From Microbulbifer taiwanensis (GTDB lineage: Bacteria; Pseudomonadota; Gammaproteobacteria; Pseudomonadales; Cellvibrionaceae): DNA of 64,000 nucleotides. Location of the stretch: contig NZ_JACZFR010000021.1 in assembly GCF_014904815.1 (NCBI RefSeq), forward strand, positions 1-64,000. The letters are read 5' to 3'. This document shows positions 12,149 to 25,638 of the stretch, piece after piece. The stretch's first letter is position 1; every line of letters starts with the position of its first letter. A model generated the notes under the pieces. That model was not told where the DNA came from. It was given only the letters and a program-made list of their open reading frames with translations, and searched no databases. Position numbers and translations under genes: made by a program.

Positions 12149-13096
12149 TTATCTCAGCAACAGCAGCGGCTGTTGTGTACTCAGCAACATCTTGGCAGTG
12201 ATACTGCCCATCAGCAGGTCGCGCAGGCGGTTGTGGCTGAAGGCCCCCATCACCGTCAGGTCGATATCGTGCTGCGCCTGGTAGGCGGTCAGCGCCTCCA
12301 CGGTTCTTCCCTCCAGGCGGTTGGCGGTTACCGCCAGGCCGGCTTCATCCAGCACGGCGCTGGCTTCGGCCAGTAAACCCTCGGCGGTGTCGGCCGACCC
12401 CACATATACCAGGTGACAGGAGAGTTCCCGGAACAGCGGGCTCCCGGCCACCAGTGCCAGCGCCTTGCGCGCGGCGTCGCTGCCGTCGTAGGCGAGCATG
12501 ATCCTGCGCGGTGGCTGGAACTCCCGATTGACCACCAGGATCGGCTTGTGCAGCGAGCGCACCACAGTTTCCAGGTGGGTGCCCAGGCCCTGCTCAGAAC
12601 CGCCGTGCTCCTCGCCGCGAATACCGAGCACCAGCACGCGAATGCTGTCTTCCAGCTCGATCAGGGATTCGCTCAGGCTGTCATGGCGCTGGCAGGTGAT
12701 CACCTGCTGCACGCCCGCCTGCTCGGCGCGCTCGCGCGCCGCCTGCAGCATCAACTTGCCCTGCTGTACCATCAGGCGCGAGCGCTGCTGTTCCAGCGCG
12801 GTCAGTTCTTCCAACAGCTCTTCCTGGCTGCCCAGGCCGATACTGCCGGTCAGATCCGCCACCGCCGGTACATTGCCGCGCTCTATATTGTGCAGCAGCT
12901 TCAGCGGCGCGCCGGTATTGACCGCAATCCAGGCGGCGTAGTCGCACACGGCGCTGGTAAAGTGCGAGCCGTCGATACAGGACAGCACCGTCGCCGCATG
13001 ATCGCGGTTGCCCTCCTGCCCAGGGCCTTGACCGTTCCGCTCAGGGCTGTGGCCGTTGACTTCCTTATTGTTATTGTCATTCTGTTTGACGGTCAT
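12149..13096 (-). CDS. Universal stress protein, tandem UspA domains
   Basis: A 315-residue cytoplasmic protein with two UspA domains. The first begins ATVLSCIDGSHFTSAVCDYA near residue 35; the second begins RIMLAYDGSDAARKAL near residue 197 and ends in VMGAFSHNRLRDLLMGSITAKML, the typical nucleotide-binding tail. The first ~30 residues are polar and probably disordered. Its ATG overlaps the stop codon of the upstream SulP gene, indicating translational coupling, so the two are expected to act together, as is common for SulP transporters and Usp proteins. Confidence 0.92.
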   Translation of the reverse strand: MTVKQNDNNNKEVNGHSPERNGQGPGQEGNRDHAATVLSCIDGSHFTSAVCDYAAWIAVNTGAPLKLLHNIERGNVPAVADLTGSIGLGSQEELLEELTALEQQRSRLMVQQGKLMLQAARERAEQAGVQQVITCQRHDSLSESLIELEDSIRVLVLGIRGEEHGGSEQGLGTHLETVVRSLHKPILVVNREFQPPRRIMLAYDGSDAARKALALVAGSPLFRELSCHLVYVGSADTAEGLLAEASAVLDEAGLAVTANRLEGRTVEALTAYQAQHDIDLTVMGAFSHNRLRDLLMGSITAKMLLSTQQPLLLLR

Positions 13097-14589
13097 CAGT
13101 GTCCTCCCAGGACCCTCTCGATTTCTTCTGGCTTGTCGTGCACGCCGAAGCGGTCGACGATGGTTTCACTGGCCTCGTTCAATCCGACCAGCTCCACCTG
13201 CGCGCCCTCGCGGCGGAATTTCACTACCGACTTGTCCAGGGCGTAGACCGCGGAGATATCCCAGAAGTGGGCGCGACTGAGGTCTATCACCACCTTGTCG
13301 ACCACTTCCTTGAAATCAAACGCGTCGACAAACTTGTCGGCCGAGTTGAAGAATACCTGCCCCGCCACCCTATAGGTGCGGCAGCTCTCGGCCTCGTCCA
13401 GCTCGCTTTCCACATACATAAAGTGGCTGACCTTATTGGCAAAGAATAGCGAAGCCAGCAGCACACCGACAAATACACCATAAGCCAGGTTGTGCGTCCA
13501 CACTACCACAATCACCGTGGCCAGCATCACCAGGTTGGTGGACAACGGATGGCGCTTCAGGTTGCGGATGGAATCCCAGTTGAAGGTACCGATGGACACC
13601 ATGATCATCACCGCCACCAGCGCGGCCATCGGGATTACCGCCACCCAGTCGCTGAGGAAGACCACCAAGGTCAGCAGGCCAACACCGGCCACCAGGGTGG
13701 ACAGGCGGCCGCGGCCACCGGATTTCACATTGATTACCGACTGGCCGATCATCGCGCAGCCGGCCATGCCCCCCATCATGCCGGTAGCGACATTGGCGAT
13801 GCCCTGCCCCTTGCACTCGCGGTTCTTGTCGCTCGGCGTGTCTGTCAGGTCGTCGACAATGGTGGCCGTCATCAGGGACTCCAGCAGGCCCACCACCGCC
13901 AGGCCGGCGGAGTAGGGGAAGATGATCTGCAGTGTCTCGAAATTCAGCGGTACATCCGGCCACAGGAACACCGGCAGTGTGTCCGGCAGATCCCCCATAT
14001 CGCCGACGGTGCGGATATCCATACCGAGCGTCATCGCCACCGCCGTCAGCAGCAGGATACACACCAGCGGCGACGGCACCGTCTTGCCGATCACCGGGAT
14101 ATGCGGGAAGAGGTAGATGATGGCGAGGCCGGCCGCAGTCATCGCGTACACCTGCCAGCCGCCGCCGACCAGTTCCGGCATCTGCGCCAGGAAAATAAGA
14201 ATCGCCAGCGCATTCACAAAGCCGGTCACCACCGCCCGCGAAACGAAACTCATCAGGCTGCCCAATTTAAGGTAACCCGCCACTATCTGCAGTACCCCGG
14301 TCAGCAGCGTCGCCGCCAGCAGGTACTGCAGCCCGTGCTCCTTCACCAGGGTCACCATCAGCAGCGCCATGGCACCGGTGGCCGCGGAGATCATACCCGG
14401 GCGGCCGCCCACAAAAGCGATCACCACCGCGATACAGAAAGACGCGTAGAGGCCGACCCGCGGATCCACGCCGGCGATGATGGAAAAGGCGATGGCCTCA
14501 GGAATGAGCGCCAGGGCTACTACCAGGCCCGCCAGCACGTCGCGACGGATATTGCCGAACCAGTCGGCCTTGGTTGAAGAGAGCAACAT
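13096..14589 (-). CDS. SulP family inorganic anion transporter with STAS domain
   Basis: A ~497-residue secondary transporter. Ten or more membrane segments start with [35 protein letters not shown], and a cytoplasmic STAS domain ([21 protein letters not shown]) occupies the last ~100 residues. SulP proteins carry sulfate, bicarbonate or other anions; the ion cannot be told here. An in-frame ATG 16 codons upstream exists, but the chosen start matches family N-termini; no strong ribosome binding site favours either. Coupled to the downstream universal stress gene. Confidence 0.9.
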
Positions 14590-14647
14590 AGGAAACAGAA
14601 TCGGAATTGATCGAAAAAAGGGCGCGCACTCTACCACAAACAGGCCC

Positions 14648-14698
14648 GGGTGTCCGGCGCCTGCCGGGGCGGACAGCGGACACTCAGGGCGGACACCC
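14648..14698. promoter_or_regulatory. Inverted-repeat cluster, likely sigma-54 enhancer (UAS)
   Basis: GGGTGTCCG (14648-14656) is matched by its exact inverse CGGACACCC (14690-14698), and two more CGGACA half-sites lie between them at 14670 and 14677. The cluster is 75-120 bases upstream of the -24/-12 promoter, where NtrC-family activators bind. The NtrC-type regulator encoded at 22973-24328 is the natural candidate, by inference. Confidence 0.6.
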
Positions 14699-14770
14699 GG
14701 TTGTTCAAACGCCGCTATCGATCAGTGAATTTTCCCTTAATTTTCAACAAGTTATGAACAAATAAAAAAC

Positions 14771-14786
14771 TGGCACGGCCCTTGCT
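14771..14786 (+). promoter_or_regulatory. Sigma-54 (-24/-12) promoter of the export operon
   Basis: TGGCACGGCCCTTGCT is a full match to the sigma-54 consensus TGGCACG-N4-TTGC. Transcription should start near 14796, about 107 bases before the chosen adaptor ATG. Together with the inverted-repeat cluster upstream it indicates activation by an NtrC-family regulator. Confidence 0.85.
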
Positions 14787-14902
14787 CTAATGTCTTCAGA
14801 GCCGGGGCTGAAACCCCCTGCATCCAGATCCGACCTCCGGCGCGTCACATGCCCTATAAGCGCAGCGCCGGTATAAAAACACCGAGAAACGGAAAGCCAC
14901 GA

Positions 14903-16183
14903 ATGATCAGAGATACCTCCGCGCAGGACATACAAATCGCCGCCGCGCCGCTGTGGAAGAACCCCAGGTTACTGAAAACCGCCAGTGCCGCCGCCCTCTC
15001 CCTGGCCTTCCTCTCCTGGGGCATCAGCGCCTGGCATTCCACCGGCTCCGTCGACAGCACCCTGTCCCTGTCCCGCATCAATATCGCCCAGGTGGAGCGC
15101 GGCGACCTGGTGCGCGACCTGGTAGTCCAGGGCAAAGTGGTAGCCGCCAACAGCCCCACCCTGTATAGCCCGGCCCAGGGTATCGTCAAGTTTGCCGTCA
15201 AGGCTGGCGACACGGTCGAACAGGGCCAACTGCTGGCGGAAGTGGACAGCCCGGAACTCTCCAACCAACTGGCCCAGGAAGAGGCCCTGCTCAACAAGCT
15301 GTCGGTGGAGCTGCAGCGCCAGAAAATCCAGGCCAAGCGCCAACAGCTGGAAAACCAGCAGAAGGCCGACCTGGCCAGGGTCAGCCTTACCGCCGCCCAG
15401 CGCGAACAGAAACGCGCGGAAATCTCCATGCAGAAGCAGATCATCTCCCAGCTGGATTTCGAGAAAACCGGCGACGATCTGGCGCGCGCGCAGCTGGAGT
15501 ACGAACAGGCAGTGCAGAACGCCGAGCTGGAAAAGGAATCCCTCGCCTTCGAGACCCAGACCCTGGAGTTGCAGGTCTCCCAGCAACAGCTGCAGGTACA
15601 GGAGCTGGAACGCCGCGTGCGCGACCTGAGAATCCTGTCCCCGGTCGGCGGCACCATCGGCAGCCTCGCCGTGGCCCAGCGCAGTGCCGTGGCCGCCAAT
15701 GCGCCGCTGATCACCGTGGTGGACCTGACCAGCTTCGAACTGGAGGCCGCAGTGCCGGAAAACTACGCCGACGACCTGGGCCTGGCCATGGCAGTGGAAA
15801 TCAACCTCGGAGGCCGAAGACTGCCCGGCGAGATCACCGCCATCTCCCCGGAAGTGATCGACAACCAGGTAGTGGCCCGCGTGCGCTTCACCGATGGCCA
15901 ACCGCAGAACCTGCGCCAGAACCTGCGACTGACCGCGCGCATACTGCTGGAAAACCGCGAAGACGTGATGCTGGTCAAACGCGGGGCTTTCCTCGACCAG
16001 AGCGGTGGCCGTTACGCTTTCCGCCTCAACGGAGAACAGCAGGCGGAGCGGGTGTCGATCCAGATTGGCGCCCTGGGCCTGAAGCAGGTGGAGATAGTCT
16101 CCGGCCTCAATGTCGGCGACCAGATTATCGTCTCTTCCGCCGAGGAGCTGGAAAACGCGCAGCTGGTTGCGCTGAAAGAGTGA
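14903..16183 (+). CDS. HlyD/MacA-type periplasmic adaptor of ABC exporter
   Basis: A ~426-residue membrane fusion protein. A single N-terminal membrane anchor (TASAAALSLAFLSWGISAW) is followed by a lipoyl-like half (VVAANSPTLYSPAQGIVKFAVKAGD), a long glutamine/glutamate-rich coiled coil (about residues 125-250), and the returning lipoyl and beta-barrel domains. It would link the inner-membrane ABC permeases to an outer-membrane channel, or present substrate to them. An ATG 18 codons upstream is in frame but lacks a ribosome binding site. First gene behind the sigma-54 promoter. Confidence 0.88.
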   Translation: MIRDTSAQDIQIAAAPLWKNPRLLKTASAAALSLAFLSWGISAWHSTGSVDSTLSLSRINIAQVERGDLVRDLVVQGKVVAANSPTLYSPAQGIVKFAVKAGDTVEQGQLLAEVDSPELSNQLAQEEALLNKLSVELQRQKIQAKRQQLENQQKADLARVSLTAAQREQKRAEISMQKQIISQLDFEKTGDDLARAQLEYEQAVQNAELEKESLAFETQTLELQVSQQQLQVQELERRVRDLRILSPVGGTIGSLAVAQRSAVAANAPLITVVDLTSFELEAAVPENYADDLGLAMAVEINLGGRRLPGEITAISPEVIDNQVVARVRFTDGQPQNLRQNLRLTARILLENREDVMLVKRGAFLDQSGGRYAFRLNGEQQAERVSIQIGALGLKQVEIVSGLNVGDQIIVSSAEELENAQLVALKE

Positions 16184-16196
16184 ACTGAACAGAACC

Positions 16197-16319
16197 GTAG
16201 GATGGGCAAAGCGCAGACAGAAAACTGCTCCATGCGTTTTCTGCATCCCCGCCATCCATGGCGGGCTCGTGCCCATCAACCGAATGCCGATGGGCACGCT
16301 GCGCTTTGCCCATCCTACA
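16197..16319. repeat. Palindromic repeat, family B copy 2, inside the export operon
   Basis: A 123-bp inverted repeat that starts GTAGGATGGGCAAAGCG and ends CGCTTTGCCCATCCTAC, with internal hairpins GGGCACG/CGTGCCC-type. It sits between adaptor and ATPase genes, where a stable RNA hairpin could stabilise the upstream mRNA or lower expression of the downstream genes. Confidence 0.8.
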
Positions 16320-16355: not shown

Positions 16356-17057
16356 ATGCTGAAAATGCACAATGTCCGTAAAAGCTACCGCACCGACACC
16401 ATCGAAACCCACGCCCTGCGCGATTTCAGCCTGGAAGTGAACGAGGGGGAATTTGTCTCGGTGACCGGCCCCAGTGGTTCCGGCAAGACCACTTTCCTCA
16501 ATATCGCCGGCCTGCTGGAAACACCCACCGGCGGCCAGTACCTGCTCGACGGCCAGGATGTCAGCGACCTGAACGACCGCGACCGCTCGCGTCTGCGCAA
16601 TGAAAAGATCGGCTTTATCTTCCAGGGCTTCAACCTGATCCCGGACCTGGACCTGTTTGACAATATCGACGTGCCCCTGCGCTACCGCGGCTTCAATGCC
16701 AAGGAGCGCAAAAAGCGTATCGAAAAAGTACTGGAGCAGGTCGGACTGTCCGCACGCGCCAGGCATTTGCCGGCTCAGCTGTCCGGTGGCCAGCAGCAGC
16801 GCGTCGCCATCGCCCGCGCCCTGGCCGGCGAACCGCGCTTCCTGCTCGCGGACGAACCCACCGGTAACCTGGACTCCCTGATGGCGCGCCAGGTAATGGA
16901 ACTGCTGGAATTTATCAACGAGTGGGGCACCACCATCGTCATGGTCACCCACGACCCGGACCTGGCCCGCCGCGCGCACCGCAATATCCAGATCGTCGAC
17001 GGCCAGGTAGCCGATCTGCGCCTCCAGTCCGCACTCGGTGAAGCAGTGACTGCATAA
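16356..17057 (+). CDS. ABC exporter ATP-binding protein, MacB/LolD type
   Basis: A 233-residue ATPase with all motifs intact: Walker A GPSGSGKTT near residue 41, Q-loop in GFIFQGFNLIPDL, signature LSGGQQQRVAIARAL, Walker B FLLADEPTGNLDS, and the H-loop in MVTHDPDL. These put it in the MacB/LolD/FtsE subfamily, which powers mechanotransmission-type exporters with four-helix permeases. A strong ribosome binding site (AGGAAAGGAA) precedes the ATG. It is the only ATPase in the operon and must serve all four permeases, unless another is recruited from elsewhere. Confidence 0.96.
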   Translation: MLKMHNVRKSYRTDTIETHALRDFSLEVNEGEFVSVTGPSGSGKTTFLNIAGLLETPTGGQYLLDGQDVSDLNDRDRSRLRNEKIGFIFQGFNLIPDLDLFDNIDVPLRYRGFNAKERKKRIEKVLEQVGLSARARHLPAQLSGGQQQRVAIARALAGEPRFLLADEPTGNLDSLMARQVMELLEFINEWGTTIVMVTHDPDLARRAHRNIQIVDGQVADLRLQSALGEAVTA

Positions 17058-17068
17058 GGAGAAAGGTC

Positions 17069-18397
17069 ATGCTCGGATACTATATTTCCCTGGCACTGCG
17101 CAGCCTGCGCAGGACGCCGGTCCTGAGCGCACTGATGGTCGCGGCCATCGCCGTCGGCGTGGGCGCCGCCATGACCACGCTGACCCTCAACTACATGATG
17201 TCGCGCAACGCGCTGGAACATAAAGACGATGTGCTCTACGCGCTGCAGCTGGACAACTGGGATCCTCACGAAGCCGACGACAATCCCAGCGCAATGCCCT
17301 GGCAGGTCACCTACAAGGATGCGATCAGCCTGCTGCGTTCGGATATCCCGACCCACCAGGTGGCCATGCACCGCTGGGGAGGCCCCATCAGCCTGGATCC
17401 GTCCCAGAACTCCGGGGGGGAAATGCGTCCCTTTACCGCCGAAGCCCGGGTCACCAGCCGCGATTTCTTCGCCCTGTTCGATATACCCTTCCTCTACGGT
17501 GGCAGCTGGCAGGGCGACGCGGACACCAGCCCGGTGCAGCAGATAGTCCTGTCCGAATCCACCAATAACAAGCTGTTCAACGGCGAGAACAGCGTCGGCC
17601 GCACGGTCAATTTCAGCGGCACCCCCTTCACCGTTGTGGGCGTGATCGAACACTGGCAGCCCAGCCCCAAGGTCCACGACCTGAACAACGGCAGCTTCAA
17701 TAAATCCGCGGAAATCTTCTTGCCCTTCGGTCTGCACCGCAGCTTCGAGATATACCCCTGGGGCAATACCAACGGCTGGAAACCGGAGGACATAAACAGC
17801 TACGAGGACCAGCTCGGCAGTGAATATGTATGGATCCAGTACTGGGTACAACTGGATAGCGATGAACAGCGAGAGCGCTACCGGGAGTACCTGACCGGCT
17901 TTATCCGCGAGCAAAAGGCCCAGGGCCGCTTTCCGCGCCCACTCAAGTTCGGCCTCAGCAAGCCCTCGGAGTGGCTGCAGCTGAACGAGGTCGTGGACGG
18001 TGACGATCGCATGCTCAACTGGTTATCCCTGGCCTTCCTGCTGGTGTGCCTGGTCAATGCAGTAGCGCTGTTGCTGGCGAAGTTCCTGCGCAAGGCGGCG
18101 GAGGCCGGCGTGCGCCGCGCACTGGGCGCCAGCCGCAAGGCGGTATTCAGCCAGCACCTGGTGGAGAGCGGCTGTATCGGTCTCGCCGGCGGACTAATCG
18201 GCATTCTGCTGACCCTGGCCGGCCTGGCACTGGTTCGCCAATTGCAGATGGGCTATCTGGACACCGTGGCCTCCATGGATTGGCTGATGATGCTGTCCGC
18301 TATCGGACTGGCAATCCTGTCCAGCCTGCTCGCCGGCCTCTACCCGGCCTGGCGTATCAGCCGCACCAATCCGTCCATCTACCTGAAAACCCAATAA
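17069..18397 (+). CDS. MacB/FtsX-type ABC permease, pair 1 first subunit
   Basis: A 442-residue permease. The N-terminal membrane helix (TPVLSALMVAAIAVGVGAAMTTLTL) is followed by a ~250-residue periplasmic MacB-type core domain, then three membrane helices forming the FtsX domain with the EAGVRRALGASRKAVFSQHL loop that contacts the ATPase. It ends SIYLKTQ. It is strikingly similar along its whole length to the permease at 19720-21045, with motifs such as LLRSD, QVAMHRWG and VTSRDFFALFD / VTTRDFFALFD shared, so the two are recent paralogues. Confidence 0.92.
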   Translation: MLGYYISLALRSLRRTPVLSALMVAAIAVGVGAAMTTLTLNYMMSRNALEHKDDVLYALQLDNWDPHEADDNPSAMPWQVTYKDAISLLRSDIPTHQVAMHRWGGPISLDPSQNSGGEMRPFTAEARVTSRDFFALFDIPFLYGGSWQGDADTSPVQQIVLSESTNNKLFNGENSVGRTVNFSGTPFTVVGVIEHWQPSPKVHDLNNGSFNKSAEIFLPFGLHRSFEIYPWGNTNGWKPEDINSYEDQLGSEYVWIQYWVQLDSDEQRERYREYLTGFIREQKAQGRFPRPLKFGLSKPSEWLQLNEVVDGDDRMLNWLSLAFLLVCLVNAVALLLAKFLRKAAEAGVRRALGASRKAVFSQHLVESGCIGLAGGLIGILLTLAGLALVRQLQMGYLDTVASMDWLMMLSAIGLAILSSLLAGLYPAWRISRTNPSIYLKTQ

Positions 18398-18423
18398 GGC
18401 CCGCAAGGAAAGGAGAAAGTGCC

Positions 18424-19629
18424 ATGCTGGAACTGAGACCCATTCTATCGGCGCTCTGGCGCCACAAAATCTCCGCGCTGCTGATCGCCGTACAGCTGGG
18501 CCTGACCCTGGCCATCGTCGGCAACGCCACAGTGGTCATTCAGGAGCGTATCGAGAGAATCGCCCGACCGACCGGTGTCGCGGTAACCGATATCGTTACC
18601 GCCCAATTCATGCCCATTGCCAAGAACTACGACAGGCTGGAGGCCTTCCGCCTGGATCTGGATATGATCCGCCAGCTGCCCGGCGTCGCCGCCGCCACCG
18701 TAAGCCGCGCACCGCTCACCGGCGGCGGTTCCGGGACCGGCCTCTACACCGCACCCAACCAGGAGATAGGTGCTACCGGTGGCGCCCAATTCTGGGGGGA
18801 CGAACACCTTATCGATGCTTTGGGCATGAAACTGGTGGCCGGCCGCGCCTTTACCCCAAACGACATCACGGAAGCCAGCTTCAGTAGCGGCTGGCGTCCG
18901 AATATGGCGATTGTCACGCAGCAACTGGCCGACAAACTTTTCGCCAACGGCGAGGCCCTGGGTCAATCCATTTATTTCAGTGGAGAAGACAATCCCATTG
19001 AGATTGTCGGCATCGTGGAACGCAACCTGGGTCCCTGGCCCAATTCACATAACGCCGGCAGCACAGTGTTTTTCCCTGCGGTCATGGACACCCAGTGGTT
19101 TGACTATGTGGTGCGCGCCGAGCCGGGTCAGCGGGAGGCGGTCGCCAAACTGCTGGAGGAGAAGCTGGCCGAACGCGATCCCCAGCGGGTAGTTGCCGTC
19201 AACCTTCTCGAAGACAAGCTGGATCGTTACTACGCCGGCGACAATACCATGATCCAGGTGCTGAGCGGCGTGGTCAGCATGCTGACCTTTATCGTAGCCC
19301 TCGGCATCGTCGGCCTCACCGTCTTCTGGATCACCCAACGGCAGAAACAGATAGGTGTGCGCCGCGCCCTGGGTGCAAGCCGCAGCGCCATCAGCCGCTA
19401 CTTCCTGCTGGAAAACCTGATGATCGCCACAACCGGCATAGTGCTCGGCACGGCCGCGGCGCAGATATTCAATCGTTTTCTCGCCAGTGAGTTCGAGCAG
19501 CCAGCCCTGCCGCTGTCCACAACGGCCATCTGCGCCCTGATCCTGTTTGGTATCAGCCTGGCCGCAGCACTGGTCCCGGCCCTGCGCGCCGCCAATATCT
19601 CGCCGGCGATGGCGACACGAAGTGTGTAG
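18424..19629 (+). CDS. MacB/FtsX-type ABC permease, pair 1 second subunit
   Basis: A 401-residue permease with the same four-helix plus periplasmic-domain plan. The start MLELRPILSALWRHK is fixed by a strong GGAAAGGAG ribosome binding site 9-15 bases upstream; the frame is open much further upstream, but that part overlaps the previous gene out of phase. The FtsX loop reads IGVRRALGASRSAISRYFLLEN, and the C-terminus is SPAMATRSV. It shares start and end signatures with the permease at 21056. It probably forms a heterodimer with the preceding subunit. Confidence 0.92.
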   Translation: MLELRPILSALWRHKISALLIAVQLGLTLAIVGNATVVIQERIERIARPTGVAVTDIVTAQFMPIAKNYDRLEAFRLDLDMIRQLPGVAAATVSRAPLTGGGSGTGLYTAPNQEIGATGGAQFWGDEHLIDALGMKLVAGRAFTPNDITEASFSSGWRPNMAIVTQQLADKLFANGEALGQSIYFSGEDNPIEIVGIVERNLGPWPNSHNAGSTVFFPAVMDTQWFDYVVRAEPGQREAVAKLLEEKLAERDPQRVVAVNLLEDKLDRYYAGDNTMIQVLSGVVSMLTFIVALGIVGLTVFWITQRQKQIGVRRALGASRSAISRYFLLENLMIATTGIVLGTAAAQIFNRFLASEFEQPALPLSTTAICALILFGISLAAALVPALRAANISPAMATRSV

Positions 19630-19719
19630 CTGCTGTTTCCGATTGCCCCGGCAGGAAATATGTCCGGGGTAACTTTCGCTGCACCGGCGCCCGAAAGGAA
19701 CATAAGAGAGAATAAAACA

Positions 19720-21045
19720 ATGATCGGCTATTACTTTTCCCTGGCAATGCGCAGCCTGCGCGGCACGCCGATTCTGAGCGCGCTGATGGTGGCCGCCATC
19801 GCGGTCGGTGTCGGCGCATCGATGACCGTCTTGACCCTGAACTATATGATGTCCCAGAACGCGCTATCCCATAAAGACGAAGTGCTTTTCGCGGTGCAGC
19901 TGGACAGCTGGGACCCGAATGCCTCCTACCGCGGTGACAGCAACCTTACCCGTATGCCCTGGGAACTGACTTATCGGGACGCCCAGGCGCTGCTGCGCTC
20001 GGATACTCCCAGCCGCCAAGTGGCCATGCACCGCTGGGGCGCCACAGTGACCGTCGACGACTCGGAAATGCGTCCATTCATCGGCCAGACCCGGGTCACC
20101 ACCCGAGACTTCTTTGCGCTGTTTGATGTGGACTTCCTCCACGGCGGGACCTGGGAGAAAAATGCCGACAGCAATCCGGCTCAGCAGGTGGTGATTACCC
20201 GGAAAACCAACGAAAAGCTCTTTGGTGGCGAGAACAGCGTCGGCGAGACGATCAATATGGACGGCCACCCCTTCACGGTGATCGGCGTGATCGAGAACTG
20301 GAACCCGGTGCCCAAGGTGCACGACCTGAACAACGGTGCCTTCGATGATTCGGAAGCTTTCTACATTCCTTTCGGTCTGCACCGCAAACTGGAAATCTTT
20401 AGCTGGGGCAACACCAATAGCTGGAAACACGAGGAAGACCTGGAGGGTTTCGAGGGCTTCCTGCAGAGCGAGTCCGTCTGGATACAATACTGGGTGGAAC
20501 TGCACACCGATGAGCAGAAACAGCGTTTTGAGAATTTCCTGACCAGCTATATCCAGGAACAGAAGGCCCAGGGGCGCTTCGAGCGCCCGCTCAAGTTCGG
20601 CCTCACTCAGCCCTCGGAATGGCTGGTGGTCAATGAAGTACTGCGGGACGACAACCGCGTACTCGGCTGGCTGTCACTGGCGTTCCTGTTGGTCTGCGTC
20701 GTCAATGCGGTCGCACTCCTGCTGGCCAAATTCCTACGCAAGGCACCCGAGGCAGGTGTGCGCCGCGCCCTGGGTGCGAGCCGCAATGCGATATTTACCC
20801 AGCACCTGATCGAGAGTGTCTGTATCGGCATTCTCGGTGGCCTGATGGGCATACTGCTCAGCATGTTCGGCCTCAGCGCAGTGAAAAGTCTCGCCATGGG
20901 CTTTGCCGATCGTATCGCCCAGATGGACTGGCTGATGATGTTATCGGCGGTGGGCCTGGCCGTTGTCGCCAGTCTGTTGGCAGGCCTCTACCCGGCCTGG
21001 CGAATCAGCCGCACCAGCCCGTCCATCTACCTGAAAACCCAGTGA
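19720..21045 (+). CDS. MacB/FtsX-type ABC permease, pair 2 first subunit
   Basis: A 441-residue paralogue of the permease at 17069-18397. It has the same opening (MIGYYFSLAMRSLRGTPILS), the same periplasmic motifs and the same SIYLKTQ end, with differences concentrated in the periplasmic domain, for example around residues 70-80 and 110-125. The chosen ATG agrees with its paralogue; an upstream in-frame ATG would add 20 residues. A 90-bp gap separates it from pair 1 and shows no clear promoter, so it is probably in the same transcript. Confidence 0.92.
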   Translation: MIGYYFSLAMRSLRGTPILSALMVAAIAVGVGASMTVLTLNYMMSQNALSHKDEVLFAVQLDSWDPNASYRGDSNLTRMPWELTYRDAQALLRSDTPSRQVAMHRWGATVTVDDSEMRPFIGQTRVTTRDFFALFDVDFLHGGTWEKNADSNPAQQVVITRKTNEKLFGGENSVGETINMDGHPFTVIGVIENWNPVPKVHDLNNGAFDDSEAFYIPFGLHRKLEIFSWGNTNSWKHEEDLEGFEGFLQSESVWIQYWVELHTDEQKQRFENFLTSYIQEQKAQGRFERPLKFGLTQPSEWLVVNEVLRDDNRVLGWLSLAFLLVCVVNAVALLLAKFLRKAPEAGVRRALGASRNAIFTQHLIESVCIGILGGLMGILLSMFGLSAVKSLAMGFADRIAQMDWLMMLSAVGLAVVASLLAGLYPAWRISRTSPSIYLKTQ

Positions 21046-21055
21046 GGACAGCGCC

Positions 21056-22261
21056 ATGCTAGAACTCAGACCAATTCTTTCGGCGCTCTGGCGCAACAAA
21101 ATTGCGGCGCTGCTGATCGCAGTGCAGCTGGCCCTGACCCTGGCCATCGTCGGTAATTCGAGCATTATTGTGGGCGACCGACTGGATAAAATCGCACGCC
21201 CCACCGGCATTGCGGTCGAGGACATTATTGCCGTCACCTACTACCCAGCCGAAGCGGGCACCGACATAGTTTCCATGGCCCGCGCCGACCTGGACATGCT
21301 GCGGGCCATGCCCGGCGTTATCGACGCGGTCCACTCGAACCATATCCCACTGTCCGGTTCCGGCTCCGCCAGTGATTTCTATCGCGAACCCAACCAGCAG
21401 ATCGACGACGAGGTCGCCAACGTCTATCACACAGGCCCGGAATTTCTGCAGACCCTGGGGCTGAAACTGGTAGAAGGCAGGAACTTTACGCCTGCCGATA
21501 TGGAGACCTGGAATCCGAACGACCGTTACCACCCCAAAGTCACTATAGTCACCAAACAGTTTGCCGACATCATGTTCCCGGAGGGCAATGCGCTGGGTAA
21601 GTTCATCTATGGCGGCGGTGACAATCCGATTGAAATCATCGGCATCGTCGAGCGGCACCTGGGCGCCTGGACAAGCTGGGCAAAGGCGGGCAGTGTGGCC
21701 TTCTACCCCTCTTTTCCCAAATTTACTTTCGGTCGTTACCTGATCCGCACCGAGCCGGGTAAGCGGGATCAGGTATTCAAGGCGATTGAGGAAAGGCTGG
21801 CACAGCTGGAACCCAACCGGGTCATCGACATGCAGACGCTGTCCGAGCGCCTGAACAAGAGCTACGCGCGTGAAAACCTGATGGTCAAGGTGCTGTCAGC
21901 AGTTATCGGTATGCTCACCTTTATCATTGCGCTGGGCATCGTCGGCCTGACCTTCTTCTGGATCAACCAGCGTCGCAAGCAGATAGGCGTGCGCCGCGCC
22001 CTGGGTGCCACCCGCACCAATATCAGCCGCTACTTCCTGGTGGAGAACTGCCTGATCGCCGGTTCGGGTATCGCCATCGGCATGGCCGCCGCACAGATCG
22101 GCAACCACTTTATGGTAGCCAACTACTCCCAGCCGGCGCTGCCATTGTCCGTAATGCTGGTCTGTGCGCTGATGCTGCTCTGCGTCAGTCTGGTGGCGGC
22201 ACTGGTGCCGGCGCTGCGTGCGGCAAATATCTCGCCGGCCACAGCCACCCGCAGCGTATAA
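21056..22261 (+). CDS. MacB/FtsX-type ABC permease, pair 2 second subunit
   Basis: A 401-residue paralogue of the permease at 18424-19629, with the same opening MLELRPILSALWR and FtsX loop IGVRRALGATRTNISRYFLVEN, ending SPATATRSV. Its periplasmic domain differs more from its partner than the membrane parts do, which would fit altered substrate contact with a shared ATPase interface. It follows pair 2 first subunit by 10 bases. Confidence 0.92.
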   Translation: MLELRPILSALWRNKIAALLIAVQLALTLAIVGNSSIIVGDRLDKIARPTGIAVEDIIAVTYYPAEAGTDIVSMARADLDMLRAMPGVIDAVHSNHIPLSGSGSASDFYREPNQQIDDEVANVYHTGPEFLQTLGLKLVEGRNFTPADMETWNPNDRYHPKVTIVTKQFADIMFPEGNALGKFIYGGGDNPIEIIGIVERHLGAWTSWAKAGSVAFYPSFPKFTFGRYLIRTEPGKRDQVFKAIEERLAQLEPNRVIDMQTLSERLNKSYARENLMVKVLSAVIGMLTFIIALGIVGLTFFWINQRRKQIGVRRALGATRTNISRYFLVENCLIAGSGIAIGMAAAQIGNHFMVANYSQPALPLSVMLVCALMLLCVSLVAALVPALRAANISPATATRSV

Positions 22262-22327: not shown

Positions 22328-22852
22328 ATGCGCAAATTGATTACAGCCCTGCTCCTGACGGGCACATCCCTCGCCAATTTTCCGGCCACTGCGGAGGAGC
22401 ATCCCGTAGTATCCGGCCCTCCGACATCCGCGCAACTCGTAGCGGAAATAACTGATGCAGACCGGAAATTGTTTGACGCCGTGTTCAATAATTGCGACCT
22501 GGAGGCATCTCAGGGTCTGGTGACAGACGATTTCGAGTTCTACCACGACAAGTGGGGCAAGAACGCGGATTCCGGTGCGGAGTTCCTGAGTTCGGTCGCC
22601 GACATGTGCAAAGGCCGGCAGAATGGCAGGAACGTCAAGGCCAGGAGGAAACTGGTGGCGGGCAGCGTTGAAATCTATCCACTCAAAAACTTCGGAGCCA
22701 TACAGATAGGCATCCACAAATTTTACGGACTTCCGCAAGGGAAGGAGCCGGTGCTGCGGGAGAGCGGCCGCTTCACCCATGTCTGGCAAAAAGTCGACGG
22801 CCAGTGGAAACTCGCCCGCGTGTTGAGTTACGACCACAAGCCCGCCGATTAA
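22328..22852 (+). CDS. Secreted NTF2-like (DUF4440-type) protein
   Basis: A 174-residue protein with a signal peptide (LITALLLTGTSLANFPATAEE) and a small alpha+beta domain of the NTF2-like/DUF4440 type. That domain has the helix LFDAVFNNCDLEASQGLVTDDFEFYHDKWG, a central GRFTHVWQKVDGQWKLARVLSYDHK strand pair, and a short cysteine-containing loop. Such domains often bind small hydrophobic molecules. Its place between exporter permeases and the regulatory pair suggests a periplasmic role linked to the exporter, but no specific function can be assigned. Confidence 0.75.
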   Translation: MRKLITALLLTGTSLANFPATAEEHPVVSGPPTSAQLVAEITDADRKLFDAVFNNCDLEASQGLVTDDFEFYHDKWGKNADSGAEFLSSVADMCKGRQNGRNVKARRKLVAGSVEIYPLKNFGAIQIGIHKFYGLPQGKEPVLRESGRFTHVWQKVDGQWKLARVLSYDHKPAD

Positions 22853-22972: not shown

Positions 22973-24328
22973 ATGGACAAGGTACTGATTATCGACGACA
23001 ACCCGGGCATCATCTCCGCCCTGGAGTTGCTGTTGTCCCTTCATCGGATTGAAACTGTCAGCGCAGTCACCCCACCCGCGGGCCTGCAGCTGCTGCGAGA
23101 ACACCCCGATATCAGCCTGGTCATCCAGGATATGAACTTCACCGCGGATACCACCTCCGGCGAGGAGGGGCGCGAGCTCTTTTTTGCCATCCGTGAGATA
23201 AGCCCGGACCTGCCGGTGATACTGCTCACCGCCTGGACCCAGCTGGAGATGGCGGTGGAACTGGTCAAGGCCGGCGCCGCCGACTATCTCGGCAAACCCT
23301 GGGACGACAACAAGCTGATTTCCACCGTCAAGAACCTGCTGGAGCTGAGCGAACTGCAGGAACAGCAGCGCAAGTCCCAGCAGCAGGCGCTGCTGGCGCG
23401 CCAGCAGCTGCGCCAGAATTTCGACCTGCAGAATATTGTCTACCGCAGCGATGCCATGCAGAAACTGCTGGAGATGGCCACCCAGGTAGCAAGGTCCGAC
23501 GTTCCGGTGCTGATCACCGGCCCCAACGGCGCCGGCAAGGAGAAAATCGCCGACATAGTCCAGGCCAACTCGCAGCTCAAAGACGGCCCCTATATCAAGG
23601 TCAACGTCGGCGCCCTGCCGGAAGATTTGATGGAGGCGGAGCTCTTCGGCGCCGAGCCGGGCGCCTATACCGGCGCAGGCCCACGAGCGCGCCATGGGCG
23701 CTTCGAGGCCGCAGACGGCGGCACACTGTTTCTCGATGAGATAGGCGAACTGTCCGCCAGCGGCCAGGTAAAACTGCTGCGGGTACTGCAGACGGGGGAG
23801 TTCCAGCGCCTCGGCAGTAGCCAGACACGCAAGGTCAGGGTGCGCGTGATCAGCGCCACCAATAGCGACCTGCCCCGGCAGATCGCCGAGGGCAACTTTC
23901 GCCAGGACCTTTTTTATCGACTGAATGTGATCGAGCTGAAACTGCCACCGCTCGCCGACAGGTCGGAAGACATATTGCCGCTGGCCAGAAACTTTCTCGA
24001 CAACGGTATTGGCGAAAGCAAGCAGCTGGCACCCCAGGCACAGTCGGCGTTGATGCGCTATCGCTGGCCGGGCAATGTGCGCGAATTACAGAACACCATG
24101 CAGCGGGCATCCGTATTGAGCCAGTCGCAGACCATCGAAGAAGAGACCCTGGCGCTGCCGGCCCAGCAGGCCACTGACAGGGTCGAGGTGAATTTCGAGC
24201 CGAGCCGTGAACTGCTGGAGCAGACACTGGCCGGCTGCAATGGTGTTATCACCCAGGCCGCACGCGAACTGGGCATGAGCAGGCAGGCTCTCTATCGCCG
24301 CCTGGATAAATACGGCATTCCCTACTGA
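22973..24328 (+). CDS. Sigma-54-dependent response regulator, NtrC family
   Basis: A 451-residue activator with three domains. The receiver (1-125) has acidic pocket D8/D9 and phosphoacceptor D53 in VIQDMNF. The AAA+ domain (~155-380) has Walker A GPNGAGKE, the sigma-54-contact loop as GAYTGA, and Walker B GGTLFLDEIGEL. The C-terminal Fis-type helix-turn-helix reads AARELGMSRQALYRRLDKYG. The phenylalanine-to-tyrosine form of the GAFTGA loop is known to be functional in the family. It is expected to activate the -24/-12 promoter at 14771. Its stop codon overlaps the kinase start by one base. Confidence 0.95.
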   Translation: MDKVLIIDDNPGIISALELLLSLHRIETVSAVTPPAGLQLLREHPDISLVIQDMNFTADTTSGEEGRELFFAIREISPDLPVILLTAWTQLEMAVELVKAGAADYLGKPWDDNKLISTVKNLLELSELQEQQRKSQQQALLARQQLRQNFDLQNIVYRSDAMQKLLEMATQVARSDVPVLITGPNGAGKEKIADIVQANSQLKDGPYIKVNVGALPEDLMEAELFGAEPGAYTGAGPRARHGRFEAADGGTLFLDEIGELSASGQVKLLRVLQTGEFQRLGSSQTRKVRVRVISATNSDLPRQIAEGNFRQDLFYRLNVIELKLPPLADRSEDILPLARNFLDNGIGESKQLAPQAQSALMRYRWPGNVRELQNTMQRASVLSQSQTIEEETLALPAQQATDRVEVNFEPSRELLEQTLAGCNGVITQAARELGMSRQALYRRLDKYGIPY

Positions 24329-25638
24329 TGTTTAAGCAGTTCTCCATTGAAGGCCGTATCGCCGCCATATCGCTGCTGGCGGTCATTGTCGGCGTAAGCA
24401 TTCCCGTAATCCTGCTGCGCTTCGATATCGACACTCACCTCGCCTGGAGCGGCGGCCTGCTGTTGGCGATGCCTACTGTCCTGCTTCTGTTGCGCCTCGT
24501 TACGGGACCGCTGAACCACACGCTGACCGCACTGGAAAGCGGGCTATTGAACTTTCGCGACGGCGACTTCTCAATTTCCCTGGCGACTAAACGTAGCGAC
24601 CAGCTGGGTCAGCTGACCCAGCTCTACAACGAAGTCGGCGAGATACTGCGCCGCGAGCGCGCGCATATCTACCAGCGCGAACTGTTGTTGGACACGGTGA
24701 TCCAGAGTTCTCCCCAATCGCTCCTGCTGGTGGACCAAGGTGATCACATCATCTACGCCAACAGCAGCTCGCGGCACCTGCTGAACAATGGAAAACCGAT
24801 CCAGGGCCTGACACTGGAGCGATTGCTGCCCAGTTGCCCACAGGAGCTTGCAGAAGCGATCGAAAAAGGTGAAGACGGGCTGTTCAGTTACAGCGATGGC
24901 GACAACCCCCAGACGCTGCATATCGGCAACAGCACCTTTGTGCTGAATGCGCAGAGGCATCGCCTGATTGTTATCCGCGAGATGACCCGCGAGCTGACCC
25001 GCGCCGAAGTCCAGGTATGGAAAAAAGTCATTCGCCTGATCAGCCACGAGCTGAATAACTCACTGGCCCCGATATCCTCGATGGCCCACAGCGGCAAAAT
25101 GTTGATCCAGCAGCCAGGCAAGGCTGAAGCGCTGGAGAAAGTATTCGATATCATCGCCGAACGCTGCCAGCACCTGACGGAATTTACCCAGGGTTATGCG
25201 CGCTTCGCCAAGTTGCCGGCACCCAGTTGCGAGACGGTGCAGTGGCAACAGCTGATCGATCGCCTGGCACCGCTACACCAGTTCACCCTGAGGGGAGAAC
25301 TGCCCAGCCGCCCCGGTCATTTTGATCCGGTACAGGTTGAGCAGGCACTACTCAACCTGTTCAAGAACGCCGCCGAGGCCGGCAGCGATGCCGAGCACAC
25401 GGAACTGCGAATCAGCGCCGACGCCCGCGGACAGGAGCTGATGGTGCGCGACCGCGGCTGTGGCATGAGCGAAAAAGTACTGCAGCAGGCACTGCTGCCC
25501 TTCTATTCCACCAAGCCGCAGGGCGTCGGCCTCGGCCTGGCCCTGTGTCGGGAAATCGTCGACGCCCACGGCGGTCATATACAGCTGCACAATCGTCCCG
25601 GCGGTGGCTTGCAGATCAGCCTGTGGCTGCCATGGTAA
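24328..25638 (+). CDS. Sensor histidine kinase, NtrB-like, partner of the sigma-54 regulator
   Basis: A 436-residue membrane kinase. Two adjacent membrane helices lie at residues ~10-60 with almost no periplasmic loop. They are followed by a HAMP-like linker, a PAS-like domain (~115-215), the phosphoacceptor H240 in LISHELNNSLAPISS, and an ATPase domain with N-box LFKNAAEAG, G1 box DRGCGMS and G2 box GVGLGLALCREIV. The missing periplasmic domain suggests it senses within the membrane or through the exporter. Start overlaps the regulator stop (TGATG), so the two are translationally coupled. Confidence 0.94.
   Translation: MFKQFSIEGRIAAISLLAVIVGVSIPVILLRFDIDTHLAWSGGLLLAMPTVLLLLRLVTGPLNHTLTALESGLLNFRDGDFSISLATKRSDQLGQLTQLYNEVGEILRRERAHIYQRELLLDTVIQSSPQSLLLVDQGDHIIYANSSSRHLLNNGKPIQGLTLERLLPSCPQELAEAIEKGEDGLFSYSDGDNPQTLHIGNSTFVLNAQRHRLIVIREMTRELTRAEVQVWKKVIRLISHELNNSLAPISSMAHSGKMLIQQPGKAEALEKVFDIIAERCQHLTEFTQGYARFAKLPAPSCETVQWQQLIDRLAPLHQFTLRGELPSRPGHFDPVQVEQALLNLFKNAAEAGSDAEHTELRISADARGQELMVRDRGCGMSEKVLQQALLPFYSTKPQGVGLGLALCREIVDAHGGHIQLHNRPGGGLQISLWLPW

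Follow-up and report, generated by a model that had tools for sequence, protein, structure and literature searches.

Probable exchange of permease pairs as cassettes on a fixed chassis in a MacB-like efflux operon of Microbulbifer

We analyzed a stretch of 64,000 nucleotides (nt) of the Microbulbifer taiwanensis genome (assembly GCF_014904815.1, contig NZ_JACZFR010000021.1, positions 1 to 64,000, forward strand; hereafter the window), which holds an operon for an ATP-binding cassette (ABC) exporter with two pairs of permease genes, A1-B1 and A2-B2, in tandem behind one ATPase gene. MacB-like exporters are known, and this system is a novel form of one: its probably heterodimeric permease heads appear to be cassettes that are traded between species and stacked, while the chassis beneath them stays fixed. 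Comparison within the genus makes it probable that the A-B unit is a horizontally exchanged cassette, set on a chassis of adaptor, ATPase, regulator, and kinase. Judged by their sequences, the two pairs of the window are best read as separate lineages, either brought together or retained in tandem. The genes concerned are the following.

14849..16183, + strand: adaptor (periplasmic membrane-fusion protein, MacA/HlyD type); Pfam HlyD_D23 and HlyD_3; NCBIfam RND_mfp, 115 bits, cut-off 95
16356..17057, + strand: sole ABC ATPase of the operon; Pfam ABC_tran, 119 bits; closest solved chain 5xu1_A
17069..18397, + strand: permease A1, 442 amino acids, type-1 cassette; Pfam MacB_PCD and FtsX
18424..19629, + strand: permease B1, 401 amino acids, type-1 cassette; Pfam FtsX and MacB_PCD
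19720..21045, + strand: permease A2, 441 amino acids, type-2 cassette; Pfam MacB_PCD and FtsX
21056..22261, + strand: permease B2, 401 amino acids, type-2 cassette; Pfam FtsX and MacB_PCD
22973..24328, + strand: NtrC-type sigma-54 response regulator; Pfam Response_reg, Sigma54_activat, and HTH_8
24328..25638, + strand: sensor histidine kinase; Pfam HATPase_c

The tandem pairs are confirmed as real, far beyond chance. A1 and A2 are 68% identical and B1 and B2 55%, with 23% identity between A1 and the B proteins, and the termini are alike within each set of paralogues, M(L/I)GYY...YLKTQ in A and MLELRPILSALWR...ATRSV in B. An initial annotation of this DNA had called the subunits starting at 17069 and 19720, and those starting at 18424 and 21056, paralogues with shared starts and ends, and these figures bear it out; the starts of B1 and A2 were taken over from it. 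Eight direct DNA repeats of 110 to 300 nt each run through both pairs at a spacing of 2,632 to 2,651 nt, a constancy indicating that the entire A-B unit is repeated. MacB_PCD and FtsX exceed the Pfam cut-off in all four permeases alike, and what we take to be the Walker A, signature, and Walker B motifs can be read by eye in the ATPase.

The prevalence and relationships of the pairs were surveyed across the family. A profile search with A1 and A2 at an E value of 1e-20 gave a match in 87 of 144 genomes and none in the other 57; operons were taken from the 47 matches of the same genus plus G007 and mapped together with the window (49 genomes), with 12 loci of other genera as outgroups. The survey of one versus two pairs that the initial annotation had proposed gives 47 single and 2 double operons. 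The single pairs are of type 1 in 13 genomes and type 2 in 34, with A and B agreeing in type throughout (47/47), and two pairs are found in the window and in G097, a metagenome-assembled genome that is 80% complete. The closest named contigs to the operon are from Microbulbifer.

Trees of A (79 rows) and B (80 rows) were built by a quick method with the Shimodaira-Hasegawa-like approximate likelihood ratio test (SH-aLRT) as sole support and a long-branch warning for the outgroup rows; L041, being a contig of G097, was left out of both. The 13 single-pair type-1 genomes and the first pairs of the window and G097 form a starred clade (SH-aLRT 100 in A and 99 in B), and the 34 type-2 genomes lie with the second pairs at a fork that is not starred (91 in A and 94 in B). 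Among the type-2 rows, pair 2 of the window and G087, its nearest relative (85 to 86% identical in A2 and 73% in B2), form a starred two-row clade in both trees. As each pair is nearer to the copies of other Microbulbifer species than to its neighbor, duplication in place does not hold. The initial annotation had inferred that the pair was duplicated as a unit: A and B do act as one unit, but their placement in separate clades contradicts duplication here.

The B tree also has an orphan B gene of G100 within the type-1 clade. This gene (L169, 1124-2332) is complete, encodes 402 amino acids, and has a SulP-like transporter gene on one side and the adaptor gene on the other. At E 1e-20, G100 has one A gene only, none being seen beside the orphan B, and a type-2 pair is also present.

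To address the movement of A and B relative to their neighbors, we correlated pairwise identities over 44 genomes, leaving out the two double genomes and G007, G082, and G087, which are without regulator and kinase or without adaptor. Correlations are 0.83 to 0.94 among adaptor, ATPase, regulator, and kinase, and 0.94 between A and B (0.92 after removal of the flank trend; permutation p 0.0005), and fall to 0.37 to 0.48 for A or B versus the chassis genes. One sister-species pair, G088 and G091, is a clean replacement of A-B alone, with DNA identities of 96% in the adaptor, 95% in the kinase, and 90% in the regulator, but 68% in A and 61% in B. The ATPase frame of these sisters is at 83% because, running from stop to stop, it takes in a variable upstream spacer and divergent last bases; its inner 50-base steps are at 86 to 100%, and in such steps the drop extends from the last ATPase bases to near the regulator start. 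G088 and the more distant G073 share 93% of their DNA in A and B, compared with 77 to 84% in the four chassis genes. In amino acids, G110 and G075 are 91% identical in A and B, with 74% in the adaptor, 81% in the regulator, 67% in the kinase, and 91% in the ATPase. Differences of this sort are also seen within type 2, where G064 compared to G065 and G066 has flanks at 95%, A at 75%, and B at 67%, and where the close relatives G087 and G099 also differ.

The distribution of pair types was compared with a species tree of rpoB and gyrB from the 49 genomes. Type-1 species occur in both of its deep clades, and three starred pairs of sister species are of unlike type (G088/G091, G089/G110, and G069/G095). 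With the two double genomes, G000 and G097, not counted, pair type changes a minimum of 8 times on this tree. Forcing the type-1 species together costs 1,691 log-likelihood units, with a p value of 0.003 in the approximately unbiased (AU) test and of 0 in the Kishino-Hasegawa and Shimodaira-Hasegawa tests (double genomes left out). A scan of IMG/VR with the ATPase returned no relative. Some match was found in 1,772 plasmid records, the 20 matches listed being to the ATPase part only; since the operon stretch is covered to 80% in none of these records, they reveal no mobile carrier.

Several observations weigh against exchange as the full account. With both double genomes in the tree, the AU test (treekit) gives a p value of 0.08, and the two marker genes, rpoB and gyrB, may be subject to recombination of their own. 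In G097, the second pair branches deeply and is placed with type 2 (SH-aLRT 92 and 94), and its B is slightly nearer to B1 than to B2 (53 vs 49%). Pair 1 of the window is 83% identical to that of G078 in both A and B, with the chassis at 78 to 88%, and pair 2 is 85% (A) and 73% (B) identical to that of G087, with the chassis at 84 to 91%; since the pairs are about as close to their relatives as the chassis is, long retention fits this genome as well as transfer does. The first pair of G097 compared to G081 (A 82%, B 70%, adaptor 69%, ATPase 81%, regulator 77%, and kinase 60%) suggests, and goes no further than suggesting, a gain of pair 1 in that genome. The tandem in the window may be old, and a mixture of exchange and of retention followed by loss may lie behind the present pattern.

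Taken to its end, this line of thought leads to birth and death without transfer, in which the tandem was already present in the ancestor of the genus and one of its two pairs was later lost in almost all lineages. The order of the pairs, with type 1 first in both two-pair genomes, would fit such a history, as would the divergence of the window pairs from their relatives by about as much as the chassis and the type-1 B that G100, a genome with a type-2 pair, retains upstream of its adaptor. We nonetheless consider it unlikely, given A and B genes that are closer than their chassis between G088 and G073 and, the ATPase aside, between G110 and G075 (91% vs 67 to 81%), the differences of G064 from G065 and G066 within a single type, and the presence of two pairs in only 2 of 49 genomes.

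Nonsynonymous divergence (dN) between pair 1 and pair 2 is 0.034 in A and 0.089 in B for the coupling (ATPase-contact) stretch and 0.280 in A and 0.556 in B for the periplasmic domains. Membrane helix 3 reaches 0.372 in A, exceeding the periplasmic domain, and is also strongly divergent in B (0.342). The expectation that membrane and ATPase-contact parts would be most conserved and periplasmic domains less so therefore stands for the contact stretch and the periplasm and fails at helix 3. The comparison of substitution by domain that had been called for gives an unusual result in B only. For A, the ratio of periplasmic to membrane dN between the window's copies is 2.01, with medians of 1.93 among 639 same-type pairs and 2.05 among 442 different-type pairs, and, compared with 532 pairs that diverge to a similar degree in the membrane parts, its periplasmic dN falls at the 56th percentile, a pattern ordinary for orthologues. 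For B, the ratio is 2.62, with medians of 1.79 (same-type) and 1.89 (different-type), and among 369 pairs matched for membrane divergence its periplasmic dN ranks at the 100th percentile (rounded); the domain statistics were computed without the orphan B of G100.

No inactivating change, which the initial annotation had named as evidence against its proposal, is seen in either pair: all four frames are open, and the ratio of dN to synonymous divergence (dS) is low, under ~0.45 in every domain compared, with dS itself high at 0.5 to 1.6. Both pairs look functional. The idea that one of them is redundant or being lost, with the tandem a passing result of recombination, is consistent with the rarity of the two-pair state in Microbulbifer (2/49) and with the high periplasmic divergence of B1 and B2, yet the open frames, conserved coupling stretch, and low dN/dS make it a doubtful one.

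A single ATPase may serve both pairs. A second ATPase dedicated to pair 2 would have spoken against sharing, and the genome (assembly of 115 contigs, 99.89% complete) holds no close paralogue, the next-best ATPase being 47% identical to that of the operon. The four next-best ATPases each lie within ~2 kb of their own MacB_PCD match (on contigs C10, C46, C42, and C33), the match beside the C42 ATPase being under the family cut-off. An inspection by eye of whether the variable ATPase tail travels with cassette type revealed no clear split by type. We infer that one ATPase driving alternative heterodimers, A1B1 and A2B2, is the likeliest working mode.

Stacked pairs behind one ATPase are also found outside Microbulbifer. 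Seventy named loci were gathered by two peptide patterns, so that close kin are over-represented among them. With L108 left out of the count, the 69 loci L039 to L107 have one A gene in 63 cases, two in 4, three in 1, and four in 1; the six loci with several A genes have one operon-strand ATPase each, and one of these, L041 (two A genes), is the contig of G097. In Xanthomonas, the genus of L095, 19 of the 20 genomes searched have a match, and 18 have at least two tandem A genes, mostly ~2.6 kb apart by a tally of coordinates. Eight hand-picked loci of this group (L293 to L300) have one ATPase and one adaptor each, with 6, 5, 5, 5, 5, 1, 2, and 4 A genes, respectively. Multi-pair layouts, rare in Microbulbifer, are frequent among the Xanthomonas genomes searched. 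In L293, two successive B genes lie between A genes (12364-14990), and the ratio of A to B is therefore not always 1:1. L105, from Pseudoxanthomonas sp. NC8, matches A in part only and yielded no B; the operon there is possibly broken.

These counts bear on a further alternative, in which A1, B1, A2, and B2 would all sit on the ATPase in one larger complex. All four permeases are indeed co-encoded behind that one ATPase, but one pair suffices in 47 of 49 genomes, the number of A genes varies from 1 to 6 in the eight Xanthomonas-group loci, and in the excerpted text of PMC5985334 MacB, one polypeptide with its own ATPase, works as a homodimer and LolCE as a heterodimer of permease units, so that we hold this arrangement to be very improbable. 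Plain tandem duplication in this lineage followed by substrate divergence, the reading of the initial annotation, has the shared starts and ends and the eight constant-spacing repeats to recommend it but is already contradicted by A1/A2 and B1/B2 falling in different clades, each nearer to single copies of other species, and can hardly be entertained.

The family to which the permeases belong was approached through predicted structures and profiles. The models of A1 (mean predicted local distance difference test score 82.7; row L099 left out of the underlying alignment) and B1 (mean 88.8) each have four long helices of membrane length and a MacB-like periplasmic domain, and for both the best fold match by Foldseek is MacB (5gko). 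The permease domains and fold, the latter from the models of A1 and B1, and the adaptor in the operon are those of a MacB-type (type VII) exporter. As in MacAB-TolC, the permeases have this fold, MacB_PCD and FtsX domains, and an adaptor; unlike it, the window has the ATPase and two unlike permeases as separate genes, and PRK10535, the profile of MacB proper, scores 226 bits with the ATPase and 25 to 52 with the permeases against a cut-off of 966. LolCDE fits no better, with 22 to 26 bits versus 362 for lolCE and 223 versus 308 for LolD. The operon itself is without an outer-membrane gene, a point against export through a TolC-type duct, with 17 OEP-family matches elsewhere in the genome.

The likeness to ADOP is of another sort. 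On its profile (TIGR03434, 803 positions), A covers 7-401 and B covers 412-801, so that the pair resembles a split version of the fused ADOP protein; being the two halves of that profile argues for a heterodimer and fits a 1:1 unit. ADOP proper is one protein scoring above 622 bits, whereas here there are two genes with 146 to 200 bits each and an adjoining ATPase and adaptor. For the DarBCD darobactin exporter (NF038007, NF038008, and NF038010), DarD is the best NCBIfam profile of the ATPase (271 bits) and DarC the second best of the adaptor (78 bits), but both are under their cut-offs of 375 and 450. No biosynthesis genes were noticed among the frames of the window at 10 to 30 kb, in the course of an inspection rather than a search aimed at such genes. 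One ATPase serving several permease sets is reported for MsiK, MsmK, and MceG. Those systems differ in being importers of another fold whose ATPase is mostly encoded apart.

A working example with a separate ATPase is VarDEF of Vibrio cholerae, which, according to the excerpt of PMC5595328, is a drug efflux system requiring an outer-membrane duct. Its separate ATPase VarF, ATPase-less MacB-like permeases, and adjacent adaptor VarA make it similar to the window in gene make-up, whereas the VarABCDEF cluster has a single permease set, a LysR-type regulator, and the outer-membrane gene VarC; the same excerpt mentions no permease exchange. Among the papers listed, no title or abstract opening describes permease-pair exchange under a fixed ATPase.

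The remaining features of the locus concern its control and its borders.

14771..14786, + strand: sigma-54-type (-24/-12) promoter-like site TGGCACGGCCCTTGCT, ~60 bases upstream of the adaptor start
22328..22852, + strand: small DUF4440 protein; Pfam DUF4440; signal-like start, by eye only

The TGGCACGGCCCTTGCT site is one of three exact consensus matches in the window; with one mismatch allowed, there are 26 matches where 22.0 are expected, no excess over chance. A related sigma-54-type pattern is present around the adaptor start in 17 of 47 loci, including the window, compared to 0.05% of base-shuffled stretches, and these putative sites fit control by the NtrC-type regulator. Counting against such control, 30 of the 47 adaptor-start stretches are without a site under the pattern used.

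Blastp identifies relatives of the DUF4440 protein behind the pair at 11 of the 34 type-2 loci and at none of the 13 type-1 loci, making this protein a possible companion of the cassette. Between the adaptor and ATPase genes (16197-16318) is a perfect 20-nt inverted repeat, GTAGGATGGGCAAAGCGCAG, with 82 nt between its arms. Pieces resembling it are readable in the post-B spacers of L110 and L115, and it looks like a dispersed intergenic repeat. By eye, the spacers between B and the regulator gene in L111, L113, L128, L132, L136, and L154 contain long imperfect palindromes of like wording. Such palindromes at the right border of the cassette could be either recombination hot spots or merely common repeats. 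Rfam at its gathering threshold identifies two tRNAs near 58.5 kb and nothing else in the window.

Together, these comparisons lead us to propose an efflux operon of the MacB-like (type VII ABC) kind in which exchangeable heads are set on a fixed chassis. The chassis would consist of the adaptor, one ATPase, and the sigma-54 regulator and kinase pair, and the head of an A-B pair, most likely a heterodimer on an ATPase dimer. Heads would expel substrates from the periplasm by way of the adaptor and a duct of the TolC type. We draw the details of clamping from what is generally known of MacB and LolCDE. By that scheme, as outlined in the excerpt of PMC5985334, the ATPase dimer would clamp an A subunit together with a B subunit and power movements on the periplasmic side. 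In Microbulbifer, A and B would be replaced together, homologous recombination via the conserved flanking genes being the most likely route, while the chassis genes keep a common history. With two divergent heads in tandem, the cell described here can probably assemble A1B1 or A2B2 on the same ATPase and adaptor. The two pairs may have different substrates, and antimicrobial peptides or macrolides are guesses made by analogy to MacB and VarDEF. The wider proposition is that, in a class of proteobacterial MacB-like operons, one ATPase, the adaptor, and sigma-54 control stay in place as a chassis, onto which heterodimeric heads from other species are swapped or stacked, as many as six of them in Xanthomonas; to us it seems about evenly poised between true and false.

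Comparisons of efflux pumps usually treat them as fixed systems; in the operons studied here, the half that faces the substrate seems to pass between species as one piece and to settle on a motor, adaptor, and regulator already in residence. If this is true, changes in substrate range would come about through recombination of entire heads instead of point mutations, and a species could widen its range by stacking heads, at least two of which in one cell would compete for a single motor. The ATPase sequence of a close relative would then tell little about what its pump handles. Natural matched sets with a near-identical chassis and a different head, such as G088 and G091, would lend themselves to finding what the heads recognize.

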